Of a stretch of 20,459 nucleotides of DNA, positions 4,182 to 17,680 are shown piece after piece. Source of the stretch: a virus; IMG/VR virus record IMGVR_UViG_3300037185_000020, positions 1 through 20,459 of that record; one strand, written 5' to 3'. The position numbers and the translations under genes are program-made. The notes below the pieces were generated by a model. It was not told the DNA's origin. It ran no database searches and saw only the letters and a list, made by a program, of their open reading frames with translations. Every line of letters begins with the position of its first letter. Within the stretch, counting starts at the first letter, position 1.

Positions 4182-4874
4182 TTATGGTTGATATGGAAGA
4201 TACTCTGGCAAAAAGGCACTTCCACTGATATACGCCATTACATAGGCAGTTGCTAAAGTTCCATTAGGGAGACACATATTCATTGCTCTCATGCCGATAG
4301 GTAGAGCATTCCAAAAGGTATTATTAGCTGTAATTTGTGAGTTACTATAAACCGTTACCGAAGCTGTATAGCTGGTCGGTATTTCAGGATATTGAGGCCA
4401 ATAGACGTTATAGCTATTCCAACGCGTTGACTGAATAACATCATAAGGAACGCCGCCGGGATATGCTGGAACGATATAGTTGCTGAACCAAGTTTCGTCA
4501 CAGTTGCCGGGCGGAATATAACCAACGCAAATAAACAAGCCGGGCGAAATTGGAAATGTTTCGTATCCACTATCAGCGGTTGAACCAATGTCCAAAGGAG
4601 TACCTGTTATATCAAGATATACTTTATCAGGTCTTACTCTTACTATTTGGTTGGGGTAATACTCCATATCGCTATTATAGTCACCCACATATTTGATAGG
4701 CAAATGTTCATCTACCTTATTCAAAGATATTACCGCTCCCTGTGGAGTATAATCCACGCGGATTCCAGAACCAGCAATAAGGTTATGGGCATTAAGGGAA
4801 CCAGCAACCCTATTTCGCCAAGCACTGGATTTATTCTCAGTTAGCGGTAAAGGATTTATCCTATTCTGTATCAT
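4182..4874 (-). CDS. Tail-tip or fibre-adaptor protein
   Basis: The protein has 230 residues. Residues about 27-53 (NAHNLIAGSGIRVDYTPQG then AVISLN) match a pattern common near the N-terminus of phage fibre-associated proteins, a Gly-rich turn followed by a short beta hairpin. Residues about 60-90 (YVGDYNSDMEYYPNQIVRV) resemble the aromatic G-D-Y...Y-x-x-x-x-V motif of small carbohydrate-binding-type modules attached to tail fibres. The rest is rich in Tyr, Pro and Asn. ATG at 4874 is one base after the stop of the upstream gene (TAATATG), and its own stop abuts the next ATG, so the tip genes are tightly coupled. Function is inferred from these motifs and position. Confidence 0.75.
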   Translation of the reverse strand: MIQNRINPLPLTENKSSAWRNRVAGSLNAHNLIAGSGIRVDYTPQGAVISLNKVDEHLPIKYVGDYNSDMEYYPNQIVRVRPDKVYLDITGTPLDIGSTADSGYETFPISPGLFICVGYIPPGNCDETWFSNYIVPAYPGGVPYDVIQSTRWNSYNVYWPQYPEIPTSYTASVTVYSNSQITANNTFWNALPIGMRAMNMCLPNGTLATAYVMAYISGSAFLPEYLPYQP

Positions 4875-4875
4875 A

Positions 4876-5937
4876 TTATGTTATGCCTGTATAGTTTGGC
4901 GGATACGGTGTTGGTTGTAGCGATGGAAAATCGCCAATAGGTGAAAATCTATAATAAAGGTCGTCAAGCCATTCATCAAACTCAAAATTCTGCTCTATAC
5001 GAACTTTGGTCGGCGTCATAAACGTTCTAATAGGCACACCAACCAAATATCCACCAAGGGCAAAAGAAGTTGTGCTATCCTTGTATTGGTTATCTGCTAA
5101 TGATTTTGGCATAGCATAACTAGGAAGTAATTGAGCAGTTGTTACTGGGTCTGGATTGAAATATTTTATCAAATCTTGGCGTGAAATGATAGGATTGACA
5201 TTAGAAAGCTGAGCTGCTGCAGGCGACAAAATCTGTGTGTAATAAGGATTAGCGTCATAAGCATTTGGGTCTTTGATAGAGTAAACCGCCACACGCTTTA
5301 CATGAATGATGGTTGACTGAACCGATGTTACGCCCGACTTCAAGTGGTTTAAGAATTGAGAGGCAATGGGCTGCAAAGCAACAAGTTGTCCTAACTGAGT
5401 TGGTGTTAGCGTTGAGTTATTCAATGGGTTTACCGTGAAATTTACATGTCCATATACGCCATACTTCACTGCCTCTTTGATTACAACTCTCACCCAAGGC
5501 GGAACCGTATATCTTGCTGTATCGTTCAGCAAAGTAGAGTTTGGATAAGTTGTGAAAATACCAGCATCAAATATGTCTCTATTGACAACATTTGGCGTAA
5601 TTTCCCATTGCACACGTTCATTCACCCGATTATCTGTATCAGCGATTTCATCGTATGGCACTGTAATAGTTATGGAGTAGTTTAGCCCCGGCAATTCTTG
5701 GATAGTATAGGAATAGTTTTGGTTTGCTACCCATAAAGCTAAATCATAAACATCAGCCTTTATTCCTACATAAATTTTTTCTGTGCTACCAAGCGTTGTT
5801 GCGGAAAATGAGGATTTTCTTGGTTGCAATACTAGTTGCCCCAATGGAGCACCCATAGCAACAAATGGGTCGTATGGGTTGGTATTACCAGCCAATAAGC
5901 TTGATTGATATGTCGCTATGTCATTTCTTTCTATCAT
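4876..5937 (-). CDS. Tail-tip protein immediately after the tape measure, family not recognised
   Basis: The protein has 353 residues from the chosen start. The frame extends to ATG at 6018, but that would overlap the tape measure by 80 nt. ATG at 5937 follows the tape-measure stop by one base (TAATATG) with an AGGA SD at normal spacing, so I prefer it. The protein looks beta-rich and soluble, with many Tyr, Asn and Pro residues. A region around residues 85-130 (YTIQELPGLNYSITITVPYD) looks like a beta-sandwich edge. In siphoviruses this slot usually encodes a distal tail or other baseplate protein, but I see no diagnostic motif. Structural role is inferred from position only. Confidence 0.75.
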   Translation of the reverse strand: MIERNDIATYQSSLLAGNTNPYDPFVAMGAPLGQLVLQPRKSSFSATTLGSTEKIYVGIKADVYDLALWVANQNYSYTIQELPGLNYSITITVPYDEIADTDNRVNERVQWEITPNVVNRDIFDAGIFTTYPNSTLLNDTARYTVPPWVRVVIKEAVKYGVYGHVNFTVNPLNNSTLTPTQLGQLVALQPIASQFLNHLKSGVTSVQSTIIHVKRVAVYSIKDPNAYDANPYYTQILSPAAAQLSNVNPIISRQDLIKYFNPDPVTTAQLLPSYAMPKSLADNQYKDSTTSFALGGYLVGVPIRTFMTPTKVRIEQNFEFDEWLDDLYYRFSPIGDFPSLQPTPYPPNYTGIT

Positions 5938-5938
5938 A

Positions 5939-7570
5939 TTATAATCCTGCTCCTTCGCTTTCTCCGCCACTGTCAATATCAGGCGTTGTGTTTTCCACAA
6001 TCTGTTGCAATAGTTCAACCATTTTGCTATTTAACTGAATAATTTTGGATTGAATGTCTGCACCAAATACACCACCGATGGCTAGATTTTTACTGCCTGA
6101 TCCGCCGCCAGTTCCACCTTCGCCCAATCGGCTGAGGATACCTTGTCTTGTTGGCGGTGGTCCTAATCCCCCGCTAAATAGGTCTGAGCCAGCTATGTCT
6201 GCGGCACCTATACCAGCAGCCGAATAGCCAGCACCAGCAATACCCATAGGTCCAGTATATTTATCAATACCTCTTGCCCAAGCTATAATTTCCCGTGGAC
6301 TCATCTTAACAAACATATTCTGTAACATCTTATTGCCACCTGAGCCCGTCTTTACCCAATTCAATATTTCAGGAATGCTCATGGTTTTGAGTGCGCTTCT
6401 TATCGTTGATACACCTAGTGCTCCCACTCTACTTGCAATACCTGATAATCCTGTTCCACCAATACCACTAAAATTGGCTGCTGCTGCGCCAGCTTTACCA
6501 GCTAATGTCTCTGCTCCTACTACACCTGCCGCACTTTCAATTCCTCTAGCACCAAGGCCCGCAGCCTTTGCCCAAGGACTAACTCCGAATGTGGCAAGTG
6601 TTCCAAGACCTTCACCTGCACCCGCTCCTTCTCTTTCCGCTTCTGTTTCAGGTCGTCCAAATGGTTGCCAATTGCCAAAACTAACAAGACCCGGCAAGAA
6701 GTTGCCGATGCCTTTATACATTGATTTGATTCTTGTCTTACCTTGTGCGGTATCCTGTTTCCAAGCATCCTTTTCAGCTTGTCCGCCGAATATAGCTTTA
6801 ATTCCCAAGAAGGGATTTCTTATTGCAGCAGTAGCAACAGCAACTAATCCATTTACCATCTTAGCAAAACCGTCAACAATGCTCAACACTAAATGGATTG
6901 GAGTAGCCAAATGGTTGACGATGGATTTCAAGTCCTCTTTTATCAGCATCATGCCTCTGGTCATAGCAAGAGAGTCTGCCTCTGAAACAATTTGTGATTC
7001 GTGAGCAGCCTGATATTGTGGTCCATTTCTACCATTAGCTTCTTTACCTAAAGCACGTATATCCAAATATGCCTTGGCTCCATAGATTGATTGCAGTGCT
7101 CCTTCATTGCCGTTTCCACCGCCTGCCAAGGTCTTATAGAATAACTCAGAAGTGTTCAATCTATTTGGGCCAGTTAAGTCAGAAGGATTGATTTTTAGTG
7201 CATGAAAACTTTGTGCTAGTTTCACATTGCCGTTGGCAGCTTTGGTGGCGGCAGCTTCAAGTTTATTGTAATAATTATGTATCTTATCAACAGACACCCC
7301 TGCCCTTTCTGCCATTACTGCAAGAGCTTGATATTGTTCTCCCGTCATTCCAAGCGCACGAGCGGTTTTTTGTAGCTCAGTTGCCCATTCACCTGTTCGT
7401 CTTACCATTTCTTCAACAGCGACAACACTGAATACGCCTTTGAGTTTATCACCAATACTTTTTTGTAGTTCATCGCCTAGTCCTTTAGCTTCACGTTTTA
7501 CATCTGCTATAGAACGTAGCGCTGAACTATTTTCACCTTCAATCCTAAATTTTAGCGAACTTACAGCCAT
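5939..7570 (-). CDS. Tail tape-measure protein (short)
   Basis: The protein has 543 residues. An N-terminal helical part (FRIEGENSSALRSIADVKRE) is followed by coiled segments around residues 60-120. A hydrophobic Ala/Gly-rich middle contains likely membrane-active stretches (for example LVLSIVDGFAKMVNGLVAVA). The C-terminus is Gly-rich and ends with a helix containing MVELLQQIVENT, a common tape-measure ending. It sits between the chaperone candidate and the tip genes, as expected. The tape measure sets tail length and usually enters the host envelope during injection. At about 0.15 nm per residue it predicts a tail near 80 nm. ATG at 7570 directly follows the upstream stop (TAAATG). No muralytic domain is evident. 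Confidence 0.85.
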   Translation of the reverse strand: MAVSSLKFRIEGENSSALRSIADVKREAKGLGDELQKSIGDKLKGVFSVVAVEEMVRRTGEWATELQKTARALGMTGEQYQALAVMAERAGVSVDKIHNYYNKLEAAATKAANGNVKLAQSFHALKINPSDLTGPNRLNTSELFYKTLAGGGNGNEGALQSIYGAKAYLDIRALGKEANGRNGPQYQAAHESQIVSEADSLAMTRGMMLIKEDLKSIVNHLATPIHLVLSIVDGFAKMVNGLVAVATAAIRNPFLGIKAIFGGQAEKDAWKQDTAQGKTRIKSMYKGIGNFLPGLVSFGNWQPFGRPETEAEREGAGAGEGLGTLATFGVSPWAKAAGLGARGIESAAGVVGAETLAGKAGAAAANFSGIGGTGLSGIASRVGALGVSTIRSALKTMSIPEILNWVKTGSGGNKMLQNMFVKMSPREIIAWARGIDKYTGPMGIAGAGYSAAGIGAADIAGSDLFSGGLGPPPTRQGILSRLGEGGTGGGSGSKNLAIGGVFGADIQSKIIQLNSKMVELLQQIVENTTPDIDSGGESEGAGL

Positions 7571-10394: not shown

Positions 10395-10775
10395 TTACAA
10401 TCCTCTGGTAATACCAACTGATACTATACGAATTCTTGCACCATTTGTAGTAGCAACTCCATCAGTTCCGTAATCAAATACGGAGTCCTGCTTTACATTT
10501 TCTATACGGAATGGCTTGCCATTGAACATTATTCTTTGTTGTGCTTGAGGTATTACGTCACCGGGGAATGTTTCGTTCCCCGATGGGTCATACCTTGGTA
10601 TAGTAATAGTCAACATCTGTTCAACGGTGAAACCACCCTCAACCAAGTCCCTATTGAATTGGGACAAACTAGCGATACACGTATAGGATACATTATTCCA
10701 CACAAAGGATGGATTACCAAGTTCGCCTTCTATTTCGGCCATATCTGCAATCATTTCTGCGTGTAATGTTCCCAT
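10395..10775 (-). CDS. Probable head-closure / head-tail joining protein (lambda FII position)
   Basis: The protein has 126 residues. An N-terminal helix (AEMIADMAEIEGELG) is followed by a compact beta barrel-like part (FVWNNVSYTCIASLSQ, PRYDP, IMFNGKPFRIENVKQD, RIRIVSVGI). The pattern of a buried W or F strand, a G-x-x-F/Y-R-I-x-x-V strand and a final V-strand fits small stopper proteins that sit under the portal. ATG at 10775 follows the upstream stop by 4 nt. It is placed before the gpZ-like gene. Function is inferred from this outline and position; no sequence motif decides it. Confidence 0.6.
   Translation of the reverse strand: MGTLHAEMIADMAEIEGELGNPSFVWNNVSYTCIASLSQFNRDLVEGGFTVEQMLTITIPRYDPSGNETFPGDVIPQAQQRIMFNGKPFRIENVKQDSVFDYGTDGVATTNGARIRIVSVGITRGL
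10401..10406 (-). promoter_or_regulatory. Shine-Dalgarno sequence setting the start of the gpZ-like gene
   Basis: AGAGGA on the minus strand lies 7 nt before ATG at 10393, inside the last codons of the preceding gene. The longer frame starting at 10417 has no comparable site and would overlap the upstream gene by 23 nt. Confidence 0.7.
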
Positions 10776-10779
10776 ATCG

Positions 10780-11073
10780 TTATGCTATTATTCCTGTAAA
10801 TATACCATTGGTGAAACTTGCCGTCACACCAGCAGCAACATTTACATTTCCTGTTGCCCCTACAACAACCGCAGGAGAATATGTAGCCAATCTTGTTAGA
10901 TAATCTGCATCTGACTCCGTTGGGTTGATGTCTGGTGGCAACTCATTTGCCCACATTCTTGCAGTATATGCTGCATATGTTTCAGTTGTTCGTTGATAAT
11001 CCGCGTTTGGTGGATTGCCAGCTTGATGAGCCGCTGCTGTTGCTTGATATAAACTTCCTGCTGTAGCTGCCAT
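10780..11073 (-). CDS. Small protein sharing a duplicated domain with its upstream neighbour
   Basis: The protein has 97 residues. Residues about 15-65, beginning AHQAGNPPNADYQR, align without gaps to the upstream protein at 26 of 51 positions. Shared features are H-x-A-G-N-P-P-N, QR, Y...RM..N, PDI.P.E.DA.Y, and RLA.Y. The C-terminal 30 residues (AVVVGATGNVNVAAGVTASF) are different, small and beta-prone. AAAGGA precedes ATG at 11073. It lies in the lambda FI region, after the capsid gene and its terminator and before the head-closure gene, but I see no specific FI signature. Function is unknown; an interaction or assembly role is possible. Confidence 0.75.
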   Translation of the reverse strand: MAATAGSLYQATAAAHQAGNPPNADYQRTTETYAAYTARMWANELPPDINPTESDADYLTRLATYSPAVVVGATGNVNVAAGVTASFTNGIFTGIIA

Positions 11074-11077
11074 ATAC

Positions 11078-11482
11078 TTAGTTTCCTTTTTCGATTGTTG
11101 ACTGCTCGGTATTGCTATACCAATTCGCTTGATAATGCGGATGACTGTTAGAAACAGGGGCTTTTGGTTGCGGCTCTGAAACCACTTCTGGCTTCTTTGC
11201 TTCTTTTGCTAGGGCAGTCAATCTTTGTGTATATTCCACATAAGATTCATTTACTTTTTTGTCTTTGCCCTTTGGATGCTGTTCAATCTTATAAAGATAA
11301 GCCGCCAATCGCTTTTCATAGGCAGCGTCTGTTTCATTTGGTAGAATATCTGGAACGAAACCGTTACTGGCCATTCGTTTTGCATATTGTTCAAATGATT
11401 CTTGTTTACGTTGGCAGCCACAGTTTGGTGGATTGCCTGCTTCGTGTAACTTTCTGATAGCCTGATAATTTGGTTGTGTCAT
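11078..11482 (-). CDS. Hypothetical protein with repeated Y-x-x-Y-x-x-R-L units, paralogue of the next gene
   Basis: The protein has 134 residues from ATG at 11482, chosen because AAAAGGA precedes it at 4-nt spacing. The frame continues to 11650, but that would overlap both the terminator and the capsid gene. Residues about 13-63 carry the domain shared with the gene at 11073-10780. Inside it and after it a short unit recurs: ESFEQYAKRM, DAAYEKRLAAY and ESYVEYTQRLTAL. The C-terminal 35 residues are Pro/Ser/Asn-rich and probably disordered. It is the first gene after the capsid terminator, so its expression depends on read-through or an unseen promoter. Its position is that of lambda FI, which helps DNA packaging, but homology is not shown. 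Confidence 0.75.
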   Translation of the reverse strand: MTQPNYQAIRKLHEAGNPPNCGCQRKQESFEQYAKRMASNGFVPDILPNETDAAYEKRLAAYLYKIEQHPKGKDKKVNESYVEYTQRLTALAKEAKKPEVVSEPQPKAPVSNSHPHYQANWYSNTEQSTIEKGN

Positions 11483-11505: not shown

Positions 11506-11545
11506 AAGAAAAAGAGCCGACCAGCCTTTTATAACTGGCCGGCCC
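11506..11545 (-). terminator. Intrinsic terminator after the major capsid gene
   Basis: On the minus strand GGGCCGGCCAG pairs fully with CTGGTCGGCTC (11-bp stem, two G-U pairs) around a 10-nt loop, followed immediately by TTTTTCTTA. It begins about 24 nt after the capsid stop and ends before the SD of the next gene. It would raise capsid mRNA relative to neck and tail genes, or act together with an antitermination system. Confidence 0.82.
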
Positions 11546-11568
11546 TTCCCATGTGAAAATTCTCTCGA

Positions 11569-12534
11569 TTAGGTTGAGAGAAGCGGAACAATTGCTTTTG
11601 GATTTCCTGCGGCTACTCCGTAAAGAGCAACTGCTGCAAGTCTCCAACATGGCACGGATACGTCATAGACGACACGAACCTGCAATGATAGTCTGCTGGT
11701 TGGGTCAACCGCTGTGGCGGATTGCACCAGCCCGTTATTTACGTCAACTGGCGAACGCACTGCGAGCACCAATCCCTGTTTATTGCCTGCGATACCTACC
11801 AACTTATCGCCGTTAACACTACCGGTGACTGCGGCTCCGCCTTGTGGTAGGGCTGCGTCATAGAAGCGTGGATACATTGTAATGCTATCAAAGTCCATGA
11901 GCTTCATGGCTGGCTTGCCATTAGGACCATAGCCATTACCCTGCACTACGGCTGGTGAGCCATAGACATAGGTTGGCAATACACTGTTTACCAAGCTCAA
12001 ATAGAGTGAAGGATTAACAATCGCGTATCGGCTTGATTCTGGAACTTCATTGGTGTTCAACTGCTTGGAAGCAGCACCCAATGAGAATGAACCACTGACG
12101 CCGAAAGCGCCGGTAGAACCTGAGATTGCTGACGTGAATACAGAACTTGTTACCAAGTTAATGCCGTCAACAATGATACCATTCGCCAATTGTTTAATCA
12201 TTGGCGGGAAGTAAGTGTTTTGCAACATCGTTGGCGTAATTGTCGCCCACTCTGTTTCGTTGAATTGAATATCGTAATCCTTAGTAGCCAAGGTCGCAGT
12301 TACTGGTGATGCAGAAGCACGGGACTTTGCCCAACCATTCAAGCCAAGGTCATTCAATGTGCCCCAGATGGTTGTAGGAATACGGGTTGTTACTGATACA
12401 CCGCCATTTGAAATTGATTCATCGAAATTCTCCGTGAACATTTCTCTTGGTGGCATGTCAGCAATGAATTGCTCAAGGGATTTCTGTGCATATACTGCCA
12501 AGAAGCCTTGTAAACTATTTGCTGTGATTGCCAT
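11569..12534 (-). CDS. Major capsid protein, HK97 fold (P22-coat-like or lambda E position)
   Basis: The protein has 321 residues. It begins with a helix (AQKSLEQFIADMPPREMFTE). A strand-rich block follows (GVSVTTRIPTTIWGTLNDLG, then LATKDYDIQFNETEW), and later blocks such as SRYAIVNPSLYLSLVNS, which read like the spine helix, E-loop and A-domain parts of HK97-fold coat proteins. The P22 coat family is my best guess. It forms the icosahedral shell. The context is strong: portal, protease and a coiled-coil assembly protein upstream, neck genes downstream, and its own terminator. An SD-like AAAGAAAG precedes ATG at 12534. No conserved crosslinking residue or decoration domain is evident. Confidence 0.85.
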   Translation of the reverse strand: MAITANSLQGFLAVYAQKSLEQFIADMPPREMFTENFDESISNGGVSVTTRIPTTIWGTLNDLGLNGWAKSRASASPVTATLATKDYDIQFNETEWATITPTMLQNTYFPPMIKQLANGIIVDGINLVTSSVFTSAISGSTGAFGVSGSFSLGAASKQLNTNEVPESSRYAIVNPSLYLSLVNSVLPTYVYGSPAVVQGNGYGPNGKPAMKLMDFDSITMYPRFYDAALPQGGAAVTGSVNGDKLVGIAGNKQGLVLAVRSPVDVNNGLVQSATAVDPTSRLSLQVRVVYDVSVPCWRLAAVALYGVAAGNPKAIVPLLST

Positions 12535-13007: not shown

Positions 13008-13679
13008 TTATTGGTTGAATGAACTACCGCCAAATGTTTTTATAATGGCATTATTCCATTCTGTTTTTTCCTTGGAAATAGCATTGGTTCTAATACCGAA
13101 AGCATTTCGCCATTCATCGGTTGTAGGAAGCGCCATCTTCTTTGGAGTATCTTTTTCGGCTTCTTCTTCGTCAGCTTTTTCAGCTTTCGGTGGAGCATAG
13201 CCGTCGTCATATCCCTTGTTGGCAGCTTTCTTTTCGTCGCCATCCGGTTCAACGCTCTTGGCATTCTTTTCATCACCATCTGGTTCTTCATCGCCGTCTG
13301 GTTCTGTGTGCTTTGCCTTCTTCATTTTGCCCTTGCCCTTGCAGTGTGTGCATTCACATTCATCATCGGCATAGCCTTCATCTGGCTCCTTTTGATACTT
13401 CTCACCCGGCTTCTCTGTTTCATCTTCTGGGTCATCGCCATTATGTGGGTCATCTGGAGTAACATCGCCTTGATATTGTCCGTCATACTTGCCACCGGCT
13501 TTCTTTTCTTCTGTGCCGGGCACGCCGGGAACTGCTGCCTTCTTGGAAACCATTTCCTTAGTTAAATCTACCATAGTTGCTTCGGTCTTAACTTCTTTGG
13601 TTGCTTCAACGGTAGCTGACGTGGAATCCGTCTTATTAGCTGGAACCACGATTATCTTTACTTTGTCCATTTGCTTCAT
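13008..13679 (-). CDS. Acidic, low-complexity head-region protein with a CxCxxC knuckle
   Basis: The protein has 223 residues, highly charged and probably disordered. The sequence EPDGDE occurs three times (residues 126-131, 132-137 and 144-149). Residues 108-116 hold CECTHCKGK, a single knuckle like half of a DnaJ-type zinc finger. The C-terminal 40 residues (DEWRNAFGIRTNAISKEKTE) are more ordered. It lies between the protease/endonuclease pair and the scaffold candidate, so it may be a second scaffold, a protease substrate or a minor head protein. There is no strong SD before ATG at 13679; the leader is only A and T with one C, and ATG at 13670 is an alternative. I do not recognise the family. 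Confidence 0.72.
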   Translation of the reverse strand: MKQMDKVKIIVVPANKTDSTSATVEATKEVKTEATMVDLTKEMVSKKAAVPGVPGTEEKKAGGKYDGQYQGDVTPDDPHNGDDPEDETEKPGEKYQKEPDEGYADDECECTHCKGKGKMKKAKHTEPDGDEEPDGDEKNAKSVEPDGDEKKAANKGYDDGYAPPKAEKADEEEAEKDTPKKMALPTTDEWRNAFGIRTNAISKEKTEWNNAIIKTFGGSSFNQ

Positions 13680-14318: not shown

Positions 14319-15147
14319 TGGTTGTTATGTATGCTAAGTATTGGTCCATATCGTCTAACAATACATCTACAAAGCCAAATTTAAGTGCTTCTTCGCCCTC
14401 ATAACTTAAACCTTCCATATTCGCTTCATCAATTTGAGGGCGTTTGCTTAAGATAGTATCTTTAAATTTTCTATGTTGTTTATCGGAGTCCGCTTGTAAT
14501 ATGGATTTTTCTTTATCTGTCAAACTTCTAAATTCGTGACCCATCATTTTTGCCCATCCGCTTGATGCGATGAACATTGACAGTCCATTTTGTTTCATCT
14601 GTTCAGTGGCATCAAGCACAAGACTATAAACACCAACACCGCCCACTTCTGAACTTGGAATCATACCTACACCACGGCATTGTGATAACAACCAGTAGGC
14701 TGCCGATGTTGCCATCTTGTCAGTCCATCCATAGACGGGCTTTATATGCTCATCAATGTTGGCAATCTTTCGGCCCAATTCTTCAATGCCACAAGTTTCA
14801 CCGCCGGGACTACAAAAGTTGAGAACAATATTCTTAACATTTGGGTCTGCTACACAATTGCTTAGGGCATCTGAAATCCATTCAACATCAACAAGACCAA
14901 GTGCCTCATCTTCAACTGGTGATACATCTTTAGCTATAATACCATTGACTGTTATAATTGCTGTTGAATCTTCTTCAACCGCATCGGTAAATTTATTGCC
15001 GTCCAAATAATCTTCGCCAAAGATTGGAACGTTTGGTTGCTCCAATAGAGTTTCAATCTGCTTGATAAGATTGGTATGGGCGGTTGGAGAAATCAGCATC
15101 TTCTGATTTACCAATCGCTGTGCTAGTCTTGATACATTATTGTCCAT
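14308..15147 (-). CDS. Head maturation protease, S49 / SppA-type (lambda gpC-like)
   Basis: The protein has 279 residues from the chosen start. The ClpP/crotonase-like S49 fold is shown by the oxyanion motif SPGG (residues 113-116), the nucleophile region KMATSAAYW (Ser148), the tGS-type block SSEVGGVGVY, and a lysine in SSGWAKMMG (Lys200). The 52-residue Ser-Lys spacing fits the Ser/Lys dyad of lambda gpC as I recall it. It cleaves scaffold and portal or other head proteins inside the procapsid. The open frame reaches 15210, but only ATG at 15147 has AAAGGAG, 6 nt before it. It overlaps the portal end by 11 nt. Unlike lambda, I see no in-frame scaffold nested at its 3' end; separate genes follow. 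Confidence 0.9.
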   Translation of the reverse strand: MDNNVSRLAQRLVNQKMLISPTAHTNLIKQIETLLEQPNVPIFGEDYLDGNKFTDAVEEDSTAIITVNGIIAKDVSPVEDEALGLVDVEWISDALSNCVADPNVKNIVLNFCSPGGETCGIEELGRKIANIDEHIKPVYGWTDKMATSAAYWLLSQCRGVGMIPSSEVGGVGVYSLVLDATEQMKQNGLSMFIASSGWAKMMGHEFRSLTDKEKSILQADSDKQHRKFKDTILSKRPQIDEANMEGLSYEGEEALKFGFVDVLLDDMDQYLAYITTNGK

Positions 15148-16774
15148 TGAAAGCTCCTTTAGGTTTTTCATCACCCTGTTCTGGGCCAGCGCCTGCTTGC
15201 TCTTGAACACGAATGGTAGGCTTGATACTATCGCTCAATAGAGACAAGATAATGTCAAAGTCTTTGCCCGTTTTCTTAGAAATTCTATCAGCAGCTTCAA
15301 CAATTCTCATTGTTTCATCTTCGCGTTCACTAATCAATTCGCCTGCTGTTCTGCCACCCTTACTTGAAATATCATTTAGTGACTTGATACCAGCTTTATA
15401 ATCTGCCAAATCACTTGAACGGGTCCAGCCTTCATCAAGTGTCAAATCGTTTGGGTGAGTAAGCTCAAATACTTGAGTAAAGTTTTCGTCATTATTCTTT
15501 GGAATTAAACCGGCTTTCTGTGCATTGGCCAGTGCCCATGCTATAATGAACTTGCCGTGTTTATCCAACACTGTCTGCCTGCGAACGATAGACGACTTGA
15601 ATACTTCAGCAATACCTGTAGTAATCTTGCCCGTTACGTCTTGAGGCGAATAGACAAGCTGGTGAGGAACACCTATACAAGATAGAATCTGGCTCTCCAA
15701 ACGCTTTATGAACATCATGGTTTGGTCGGCTGGTGTATTGCTACCCAATGTCTTTAGGTCGCCACCTTGAGCACGAATGTATCTAATGCTTGGACCTTGA
15801 ACAACTTCAACGCCGTGAATGTCGGGCTGTGGAATCTGACTACCGAATTCAAGTGCTTGAGTATTCATAGCAGCAAGAATTTGAGCTGTTTCCATCGGAG
15901 CTTCGCCGCTTGGCGTCTTTTCAATCAGCCCGATACACGATTCAATCTTGATTTTTTCAATCAAATAACTGTCCAGTTCTTGAATTGATAAAGCTTTTAG
16001 AATTGCTGGGCCGATGCTTGGCATACCTCTGCCCTTATCAAAAAATACAGGGTCATAAACTAGCGTTGCATTCTTTGCTGAAATTATTTGGTCATTGGTA
16101 ACATACGGCATATTGGTTACAAGATTGCCAATGCTTTGAACATTGTATCCTATCGCCTTACCGGCCATGTTATAGAGAACGCCATCGCATAGAATGCCAT
16201 CGCCAAGCGGAGAGTCGTCAGCGGTAAAGATTTTGTTATCCATGCTCAAAGAGCGAACTCTATGTGAGGGAATAATCTGAAATTTTGGAAAGCCATTCTG
16301 ACTAAAACCATAAATGCAAAGGAAATCGCCGTCCGTATCTAGGAGGCGACTTTCAAGATTCATTACCGTTTGGAAAGGATAGTTGGCGCCTCTTGTGCAG
16401 CAATTAGGATAGAAGTCATTCAATAGCCAATCCACTGCGTCTTTGCCCCAAGCGGTATTGTCACCAATGTATTCAGGGAGATAAGCGGTGCCAACTACGA
16501 AGTCTGATAAAATCTTTATGCCTGCTGAAACAAATGGTAGCTGTGCGGTCATCTCCCTTGACCATCGCACAACTAGTTCACGGGATACTGAATCCAACCC
16601 TTGTTCAGAATCGGATAAAGTATAAAATCTTGGCCGGTAGTTGCCCCACTCCGGATAGCTGTAAATATTCCCGTACAATCCAAGGGCTTGCTTTTTAGGA
16701 GCATTGTGGACCAGTTTATCTGCTGGAGAAACTGATTTTCCATATTTATCAAAAAGTGAAATATTAGCTTTCAT
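15137..16774 (-). CDS. Portal protein, lambda B family
   Basis: The protein has 545 residues, close to the usual lambda-type portal length. Recognisable blocks are SREMTAQLPFVSAGIKILSD (residues about 72-91), LESRLLDTDGDFLCIYG (140-156), the strand FPKFQIIPSHRVRS (162-175), a loop with GGDLKTLGSNTPADQTMMFI, and a C-terminal helical part with GVPHQLVYSP and GIAEVFKSSIVRRQT. The portal is the dodecameric DNA channel at one capsid vertex and docks the terminase. It overlaps both neighbours by 11 nt: the GIY-YIG gene at its start (ATGAAAGCTAA) and the protease at its end (ATGGACAATAA). It lies after the terminase and gpW-like genes as in lambda. Confidence 0.95.
   Translation of the reverse strand: MKANISLFDKYGKSVSPADKLVHNAPKKQALGLYGNIYSYPEWGNYRPRFYTLSDSEQGLDSVSRELVVRWSREMTAQLPFVSAGIKILSDFVVGTAYLPEYIGDNTAWGKDAVDWLLNDFYPNCCTRGANYPFQTVMNLESRLLDTDGDFLCIYGFSQNGFPKFQIIPSHRVRSLSMDNKIFTADDSPLGDGILCDGVLYNMAGKAIGYNVQSIGNLVTNMPYVTNDQIISAKNATLVYDPVFFDKGRGMPSIGPAILKALSIQELDSYLIEKIKIESCIGLIEKTPSGEAPMETAQILAAMNTQALEFGSQIPQPDIHGVEVVQGPSIRYIRAQGGDLKTLGSNTPADQTMMFIKRLESQILSCIGVPHQLVYSPQDVTGKITTGIAEVFKSSIVRRQTVLDKHGKFIIAWALANAQKAGLIPKNNDENFTQVFELTHPNDLTLDEGWTRSSDLADYKAGIKSLNDISSKGGRTAGELISEREDETMRIVEAADRISKKTGKDFDIILSLLSDSIKPTIRVQEQAGAGPEQGDEKPKGAFNGQ
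15154..15160 (-). promoter_or_regulatory. Shine-Dalgarno sequence setting the start of the head protease
   Basis: AAAGGAG on the minus strand lies 6 nt before ATG at 15147, inside the last portal codons. Longer starts at 15171 and 15210 have no such site. Confidence 0.8.
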
Positions 16775-17369
16775 TCAATACCCATTCTTTATACGACGGT
16801 TTTACCCCGTGTAATAATTTCCATACACCCACCGGCTTTAGATTAAATTGTGTATAGAAATCTTGTCTTGTGCCATTGAATACTTCATTAGTAATTCTAT
16901 GACGAAATTGATAAGTATTCTTATCTAAATGTCTTTTAGTGCCAACCAAACTCAAACTTACTTTCTTTCTTTGCTTATCTGTAAGATGCTTACCAAGCAT
17001 AGTGCCCGGTTTACCATACCTAACATTATTTGGACCACGCAATTTATCTTTAGTTTCTTCTGTATGCTTTCTACCACCCATTACAGAATAAGCATCGTGA
17101 CTTAAATTGTATGCTAAAGAATAATCAAGTGTATCAAGAAAACTCTGTTCTACATCAAGCAATTGTTCTACAGGCACTTCTTTAATCAATTCAAACTTGA
17201 AAGCACTCTCACCATACTTATTCCAAGCAAATTGAAGGTGTCTATTTTTATGTCTATTACCACGCAATTCTTTTGTATGCTGGGACCACCTATTATCTAC
17301 ATCAGCAGATGAGCCAATGTAAACTTTACCATTTACAGTATTAGTGATAGAATAGATACCTGACTTCAT
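16764..17369 (-). CDS. Free-standing GIY-YIG homing endonuclease with NUMOD3 motif
   Basis: The protein has 201 residues. The GIY-YIG nuclease domain is complete: GIY at 4-6, YIG at 17-19, Arg27 in NRWSQH, a helix with KNRHLQFAWNKYGESAFKF (41-59), the catalytic-type Glu74 in DVEQSFLDT and YNLS at 87-90. A NUMOD3-like motif follows (GRKHTEETKDKLRG, 99-112), then a basic linker and a C-terminal helix-turn-helix-like part (GTRQDFYTQFNLKPVGVWKL). It would cut an intron-free cognate site and spread its own gene by repair. It starts 5 nt after the gpW-like stop and overlaps the portal start by 11 nt. No intron or intein surrounds it. Confidence 0.93.
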   Translation of the reverse strand: MKSGIYSITNTVNGKVYIGSSADVDNRWSQHTKELRGNRHKNRHLQFAWNKYGESAFKFELIKEVPVEQLLDVEQSFLDTLDYSLAYNLSHDAYSVMGGRKHTEETKDKLRGPNNVRYGKPGTMLGKHLTDKQRKKVSLSLVGTKRHLDKNTYQFRHRITNEVFNGTRQDFYTQFNLKPVGVWKLLHGVKPSYKEWVLNES

Positions 17370-17374
17370 AAGAA

Positions 17375-17680
17375 TTAGCCCGGAGGAGGCGTTGGTTTAT
17401 TTGCCCACCACCACCAACCACCACCAAAGAATGGCTTTGTCTTTCGGATAAAATGGCCATAAGTTTGAGGGTCAATCTGCTTGAGAGAATACTTACATTC
17501 TTGAAGGATTTCATTGGGCGACATTGTAAATTGCTTACGAGCTTCTGTTCCTTCACCCGCCCATTGCATTAAAGTTTTTCCCTCTAAAATTAAAGATACT
17601 GCCTTTGCTTGGATTGCAAGGATGGTATCTTCGTCAAGGGTATCAAATATGCCTGTGGGCACAAAAGAGTTATTTGCCAT
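17375..17680 (-). CDS. gpW-like head-tail connector protein
   Basis: The protein has 101 residues. The central helix-strand-helix part (LDEDTILAIQAKAVSLILEG, MQWAGEGTEARKQFTM, then SPNEILQECKYSLKQIDP) has the pattern of lambda gpW: a first helix ending in G, a short hairpin, and a last helix beginning with Ser-Pro. It lies between large terminase and portal, exactly as W does in lambda. gpW joins the head vertex before the stopper and tail. An extra tail of about 25 residues includes FFGGGWWWWANKPTPPPG, longer than gpW itself. ATG at 17680 has no clear SD. Confidence 0.72.
   Translation of the reverse strand: MANNSFVPTGIFDTLDEDTILAIQAKAVSLILEGKTLMQWAGEGTEARKQFTMSPNEILQECKYSLKQIDPQTYGHFIRKTKPFFGGGWWWWANKPTPPPG

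Follow-up and report, generated by a model that had tools for sequence, protein, structure and literature searches.

A tandem pair of paralogous genes with a repeated unit in the post-capsid slot of a siphovirus-like phage

We show here that two adjacent genes, P1 and P2, which lie directly after the capsid gene of a virus record (IMGVR_UViG_3300037185_000020, positions 1-20,459; this whole 20,459-base stretch is referred to below as the window), are true paralogues that arose by an old gene duplication. Their common domain has a history of its own: doubling of a helical unit of ∼22 residues gave a two-unit domain, the gene was then duplicated, and P1 carries a third unit. The case documents the history of an orphan phage protein through unit duplication, gene duplication, unit gain and the possession of different tails, although in kind the event is an ordinary one, a duplication in a variable phage gene slot. 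Our preferred explanation of what the pair does, held tentatively and with the function inferred, is that P1 and P2 are lineage-specific, paralogous minor accessory proteins of the head module.

Table 1. Coordinates of the P1/P2 region and its neighbours in the window
Feature	Position	Strand	Remarks
Connector-like protein, FII position	10395..10775	-	4 nt past P2; relatives have homologues in the corresponding place
P2	10780..11073	-	97 aa, pI 4.4 (acidic); carries the shared domain and an uncharged hydrophobic tail of 30 residues
Shared domain of P2, residues 9-65	10879..11049	-	P1-P2 alignment
Helical unit 2 of P2 (E53-L62)	10888..10917	-	Motif and repeat test
Helical unit 1 of P2 (E31-M40)	10954..10983	-	Motif and repeat test
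P1	11078..11482	-	134 aa, pI 8.8 (basic); carries the shared domain, a third helical unit and a charged tail of low complexity
Helical unit 3 of P1 (E79-L88)	11219..11248	-	Motif and repeat test; absent from P2
Shared domain of P1, residues 6-62	11297..11467	-	P1-P2 alignment
Helical unit 2 of P1 (E50-L59)	11306..11335	-	Motif and repeat test
Helical unit 1 of P1 (E28-M37)	11372..11401	-	Motif and repeat test
Terminator-like hairpin, strong, U-rich 3' side	11509..11550	-	-27.6 kcal/mol, z -5.84
Major capsid protein	11569..12534	-	PHROG 283 major head protein, E 6e-11; upstream of P1

Paralogy and repeat units of P1 and P2

A first-pass annotation of this DNA had read positions 10780-11482 as two adjacent paralogues, and both open reading frames are indeed found there on the - strand (Table 1), with the ribosome-binding-like sequence AAAAGGA just 5' of the ATG of P1 and AAGGAAA 5' of that of P2. 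The shared domains align without a gap, with 29 of 57 residues identical and a BLOSUM62 local score of 144; the 26 identities in 51 residues counted at first pass belong to this same alignment, minus the conserved YQA at its start. None of 10,000 shuffled versions of P2 reaches that score (mean, 25.5; standard deviation, 4.3; maximum, 51), and a tblastn search of the window with P1 as the query recovers P2 at an E value of 6.9e-14. Past the shared domain, the two tails are unrelated (local score, 12), in agreement with the different C-terminal parts described before, and the P2 tail has no charged residue among its 30. Over the 57 codons, dN and dS are estimated at 0.43 and 2.06 by NG86 and at 0.45 and 1.15 by LWL85. 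Both genes have been kept under protein-level constraint while silent sites neared saturation, and the duplication is therefore not recent. That the similarity arose by chance, or that the reading frames are not genes, would fit the lack of any homologue outside the contig in the searches made, but it is refuted by the shuffle test and further opposed by the ribosome-binding-like sites and the constraint, so that we regard it as extremely improbable.

The proposal of tandem duplication and divergence is thus borne out by the alignment score, the dN and dS estimates, and the repeat test, the last of which takes it one level deeper, to the units. The longer gene had been said to repeat a Y-x-x-Y-x-x-R-L unit; the repeat is real, but this description was too narrow, as the unit is E[ST]xxxYxxR[ML] and occurs in P2 as well, with two copies there and three in P1. 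The shared domain consists of two copies spaced 22 residues apart, and when the two-row alignment of the domain was searched without a preset register, the 22-residue offset came out as the top pair of alignment windows, with a score of 89 that 5 of 5,000 column shuffles reached. The third unit of P1 scores 102, a value reached in 0 of 20,000 shuffles and to be compared with a maximum of 49 among 19 other proteins of the window. At least one E[ST]xxxYxxR[ML] appears in 30 of 200,000 shuffles of P1 and in 9 of 200,000 shuffles of P2, for a pattern defined after the sequences had been viewed. When each sequence is compared with itself alone, the repeat is weak, its best pair being reached by 51 of 1,000 shuffles for P1 and by 280 of 1,000 for P2. 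AlphaFold models, too weak to be relied on for either protein (pLDDT of 46 for P1 and 50 for P2), predict a mainly helical fold with low confidence, in which the helices coincide with the repeat units; a Foldseek search with the P2 model gave no match below an E value of 5.

Among known helical repeats, the pentatricopeptide repeats of designed cPPR chains in the PDB have a superficially similar RM..NG..PD stretch and match the whole P1 sequence at an E value of 9e-6. We rejected this identity because the score adds up over designed repeats that are nearly identical: the best single 35-residue pentatricopeptide stretch in P1 reaches 6.9 bits with an i-Evalue of 89, which leaves P1 outside the family, and P2 and the two-row profile both lack a match to the pentatricopeptide chains in the PDB.

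Searches for relatives of the shared domain

The first-pass annotation had staked its reading on an alignment better than that of shuffled sequences and on the presence of the domain elsewhere. The first of these holds by a wide margin; as to the second, no further instance of the domain turned up in the collections searched, and the profile search of other phages that had been proposed found none there. As a positive control, the profile of the two-row domain alignment (A2) recovers both domain copies in the window. No relative was found in viral_contigs with P1, P2, the capsid protein, or A2 as the query, nor in genome_contigs with A2. The AGNPPNxxxQR DNA pattern has one match in viral_contigs, in L003, where it overlaps a terminase-like gene in another frame and was judged to be chance; the domain profile, run on the 120 related loci (23,801 reading frames), also has this as its best match (E value, 0.057). 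In 50,697 phage records, tblastn with whole P1 and P2 (E values up to 1) gave no relative, and with the domains (E values up to 10) it gave two matches to the P1 domain (E values of 3 and 9) that we judged to be chance. P1 and P2 have no relative in Pfam, PHROGs, NCBIfam, or PADLOC, and none was accepted among PDB sequences searched with P1, P2, A2, and A5; PDB rows for P1 at an E value of 0.055 or worse, protective antigen chains included, were judged to be chance.

On whole genomes, in samples that partly overlap, A2 gave (i) no match at E values up to 0.1 in the 16 genomes or records of the fetched loci; (ii) none at E values up to 0.1 in 38 virus records; (iii) none at E values up to 0.01 in 294 genomes from the phylum of G016; (iv) 23 at E values up to 0.1 in 387 genomes from the phylum of G002, against ∼39 expected by chance; and (v) 3 at E values up to 0.01 in 384 genomes from the class of G002, against ∼4 expected. 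The eight phylum-level matches whose loci were inspected are all partial and unlike the domain, and the best class-level match (L132; E value, 4.1e-4) lies amid housekeeping genes, not phage genes. The viral and genome scans require exact short peptide words and may therefore miss distant relatives. By the libraries and collections searched, the P1/P2 protein family appears to be new, and the duplication, as far as is visible in them, would be confined to this contig.

The post-capsid slot and possible roles of P1 and P2

The evident genes of the window all lie on the - strand in a lambda-like order: terminase large subunit, a small conserved gene, GIY-YIG endonuclease, portal, and S49-type protease; then a second endonuclease-like gene, two scaffold-like genes, capsid, P1, and P2; then the connector-like gene and the tail genes up to the tape measure gene and beyond. 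The terminase matches that of Verrucomicrobia phage P8625 (E value, 4e-23), which is also the only named phage matched by the portal, and both proteins point as well to prophage-like loci, mostly within Verrucomicrobiota genomes. The source phage is siphovirus-like, with phages and prophages of Verrucomicrobiota as its nearest relatives, and its host is probably of Verrucomicrobiota type.

From 120 fetched loci, we took the 29 with capsid and connector-like matches close together as a sample of the slot; some of these records are near-duplicates (e.g., L062, L067, and L069), and the 29 cases are therefore not independent. The slot is empty, with no room for a gene, in 10 of them. The other 19 divide by content: (i) seven have a protein of ∼130 residues as the first gene, two of which were tested (L116 and L077) and the others judged by eye; (ii) four have a protein of 170 to 184 residues, without a match for that of L096 in Pfam or that of L100 in PHROGs; (iii) three near-identical records have no convincing gene; and (iv) five have other content, including L097, in which a complete AbiEi/AbiEii pair (toxin-antitoxin) fills positions 4300-5960, flanked by the capsid and connector-like genes. 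The L116 protein matches Bbp16 in Pfam just below the cutoff (E value, 1.1e-5; 26.1 bits against 27.1) and has phrog_427 in common with that of L077. The slot of L018 gives a weak Bro-N match, and P8625 and its kin (L004, L008, L012, and L035) have one slot gene of 69 to 82 residues. Judged from these loci, the post-capsid place in Verrucomicrobiota-type phages can be marked as a variable swap site, which is empty or holds proteins like Bbp16, small orphan proteins, or cargo of the toxin-antitoxin type. Since the slot is variable or empty in related phages, position alone is no predictor of a packaging role.

This bears on the assignment of the pair to the lambda FI slot at first pass, which is right in position (capsid, P1, P2, connector-like gene, and then a longer gene at the place of Z) but finds no likeness in sequence to gpFI. 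The connector-like protein is homologous to the one at the same place in L062 (30.6% identity; E value, 1.6e-9). The connector label is itself weak: against lambda gpFII the protein reaches only an E value of 0.029 and a probability of 1.7%. Lambda gpFI (NC_001416, L131) is a DNA packaging chaperone encoded, like P1 and P2, between the capsid and connector genes, and at 132 residues it is similar in size to P1. It is described as bound to the prohead, on the gpE lattice, and proposed to work via nonspecific DNA binding (PMC4856287). P1, P2, or both could accordingly stand in for gpFI as prohead-bound chaperones that aid the docking of terminase and DNA, a role that their position, their small size and partly charged composition, and the basic character of P1 would suit. 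However, neither blastp (E values up to 10) nor the domain profile matches gpFI to either protein, and the slot is vacant in many related loci, which makes such a role unlikely. The presence of two paralogous copies in the window is a further difference from gpFI. A SAP/HeH-like reading of P1 and P2, suggested by the gpFI N terminus, was dropped for want of profile support.

The spacing of the genes is a further source of evidence. P1 and P2 are 4 nt apart, P2 is 4 nt from the connector-like gene, and P1 is separated from the capsid gene by 86 nt that contain the hairpin of Table 1, which our pattern scan did not list. In that scan, of E. coli-type consensus, no promoter-like site was listed for the - strand from the capsid stop to the P1 start, nor, the hairpin having escaped it, any terminator-like site on the strand of P1 and P2. 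Morons are cargo genes with their own promoter and their own terminator; no site listed by this E. coli-type scan, which overlooked the hairpin, gives P1 and P2 either one. P1 and P2 might nonetheless be moron-type cargo for host takeover, defence, or counterdefence, unrelated to the particle. The AbiEi/AbiEii pair, the weak Bro-N match, and the other unrelated proteins in the slot of relatives point in this direction, as do the absence of P1 and P2 from every family library searched and the GC3 of P2 (0.21, the lowest among 13 genes measured). Given the scan, with its E. coli-type consensus, and the 4-nt spacing to the connector gene, which speak against it, we hold cargo to be possible but on the unlikely side. 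A packaging or head-surface accessory module, as suggested at first pass, is possible. The close spacing to the connector gene and the Bbp16-like precedent in the slot modestly favour a head-module accessory over cargo.

Bbp16 of phage BPP-1 and its likes (L116 and lookalikes) are small and encoded directly past the capsid gene, in the same slot as P1 and P2. Bbp16 has a jellyroll fold and is a cement protein needed for the production of BPP-1 (PMC3863775). P1 and P2, in contrast, are predicted, in the low-confidence models described above, to be mainly helical, and they match neither PF21190 nor its PHROGs at E values up to 1 in Pfam and PHROGs. Gp12 of P8625, the nearest named phage, and its relatives in L008, L012, and L035 are likewise single small genes at this position, present in one copy only and without similarity to P1 and P2 detectable by the domain profile.

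In the accessory explanation that we prefer, P1 and P2 would be made together with the other morphogenesis proteins, and the shared domain would be a common docking part, either on the capsid lattice or, one protein being basic and the other acidic, on each other. The two unrelated tails would perform different jobs. A shared docking domain combined with different tail jobs would make the pair minor head-associated accessories rather than essential core components. We count in favour of this explanation the homology, the repeat units, the dN and dS estimates, the packing, the hairpin, and the opposite pI values, together with the ∼130-residue slot protein of 7 of the 29 loci, Bbp16-like in L116. 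Against it we count the lack of a homologue, the weak models, and the low GC3 of P2; moreover, given the AbiE cargo in the slot of L097 and the 10 empty slots, P1 and P2 may lack any link to the head. Alternatively, the two proteins could help to assemble the tail or connector, as chaperones or in a scaffold-like manner, without staying in the finished particle, as their operon position beside the connector and tail genes might suggest; we think this very unlikely, as there is no match in the family libraries and the genes precede the connector, not the tape measure gene. We further speculate, as a doubtful extension of the accessory explanation, that this new family forms a heteromer of basic P1 and acidic P2 on the capsid surface with its different tails displayed, a decoration system of two parts that a single phage lineage would have invented in the slot where relatives put other capsid accessories. 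If P1 and P2 are virion proteins, they would be a compact example of how decoration modules arise.

Other genes of the window

Some minor observations concern other genes. The portal and protease genes overlap by 74 nt (15137-15210), and the tape measure gene overlaps the next gene by 80 nt (5939-6018), provided in both cases that the listed starts are right. Between the protease and capsid genes, positions 13008-13679 encode an acidic protein of 223 residues, without a family match in PHROGs or Pfam, whose cysteine-rich CECTHCKGKG stretch resembles a DnaJ-type zinc motif. The small conserved gene and the portal gene flank the GIY-YIG endonuclease gene (16764-17369). In a sister record of 4.1 kb (L005), which is 84% identical in the terminase and ends short of the capsid gene, the GIY-YIG gene (2117-2770) lies between the terminase and the small gene, as if relocated relative to the window. 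Finally, a 101-residue protein at the lambda W place (17375-17680) gives nothing above the cutoff in Pfam or NCBIfam; it is conserved in related phage loci, with 361 related stretches in viral_contigs, and should be a useful marker gene.
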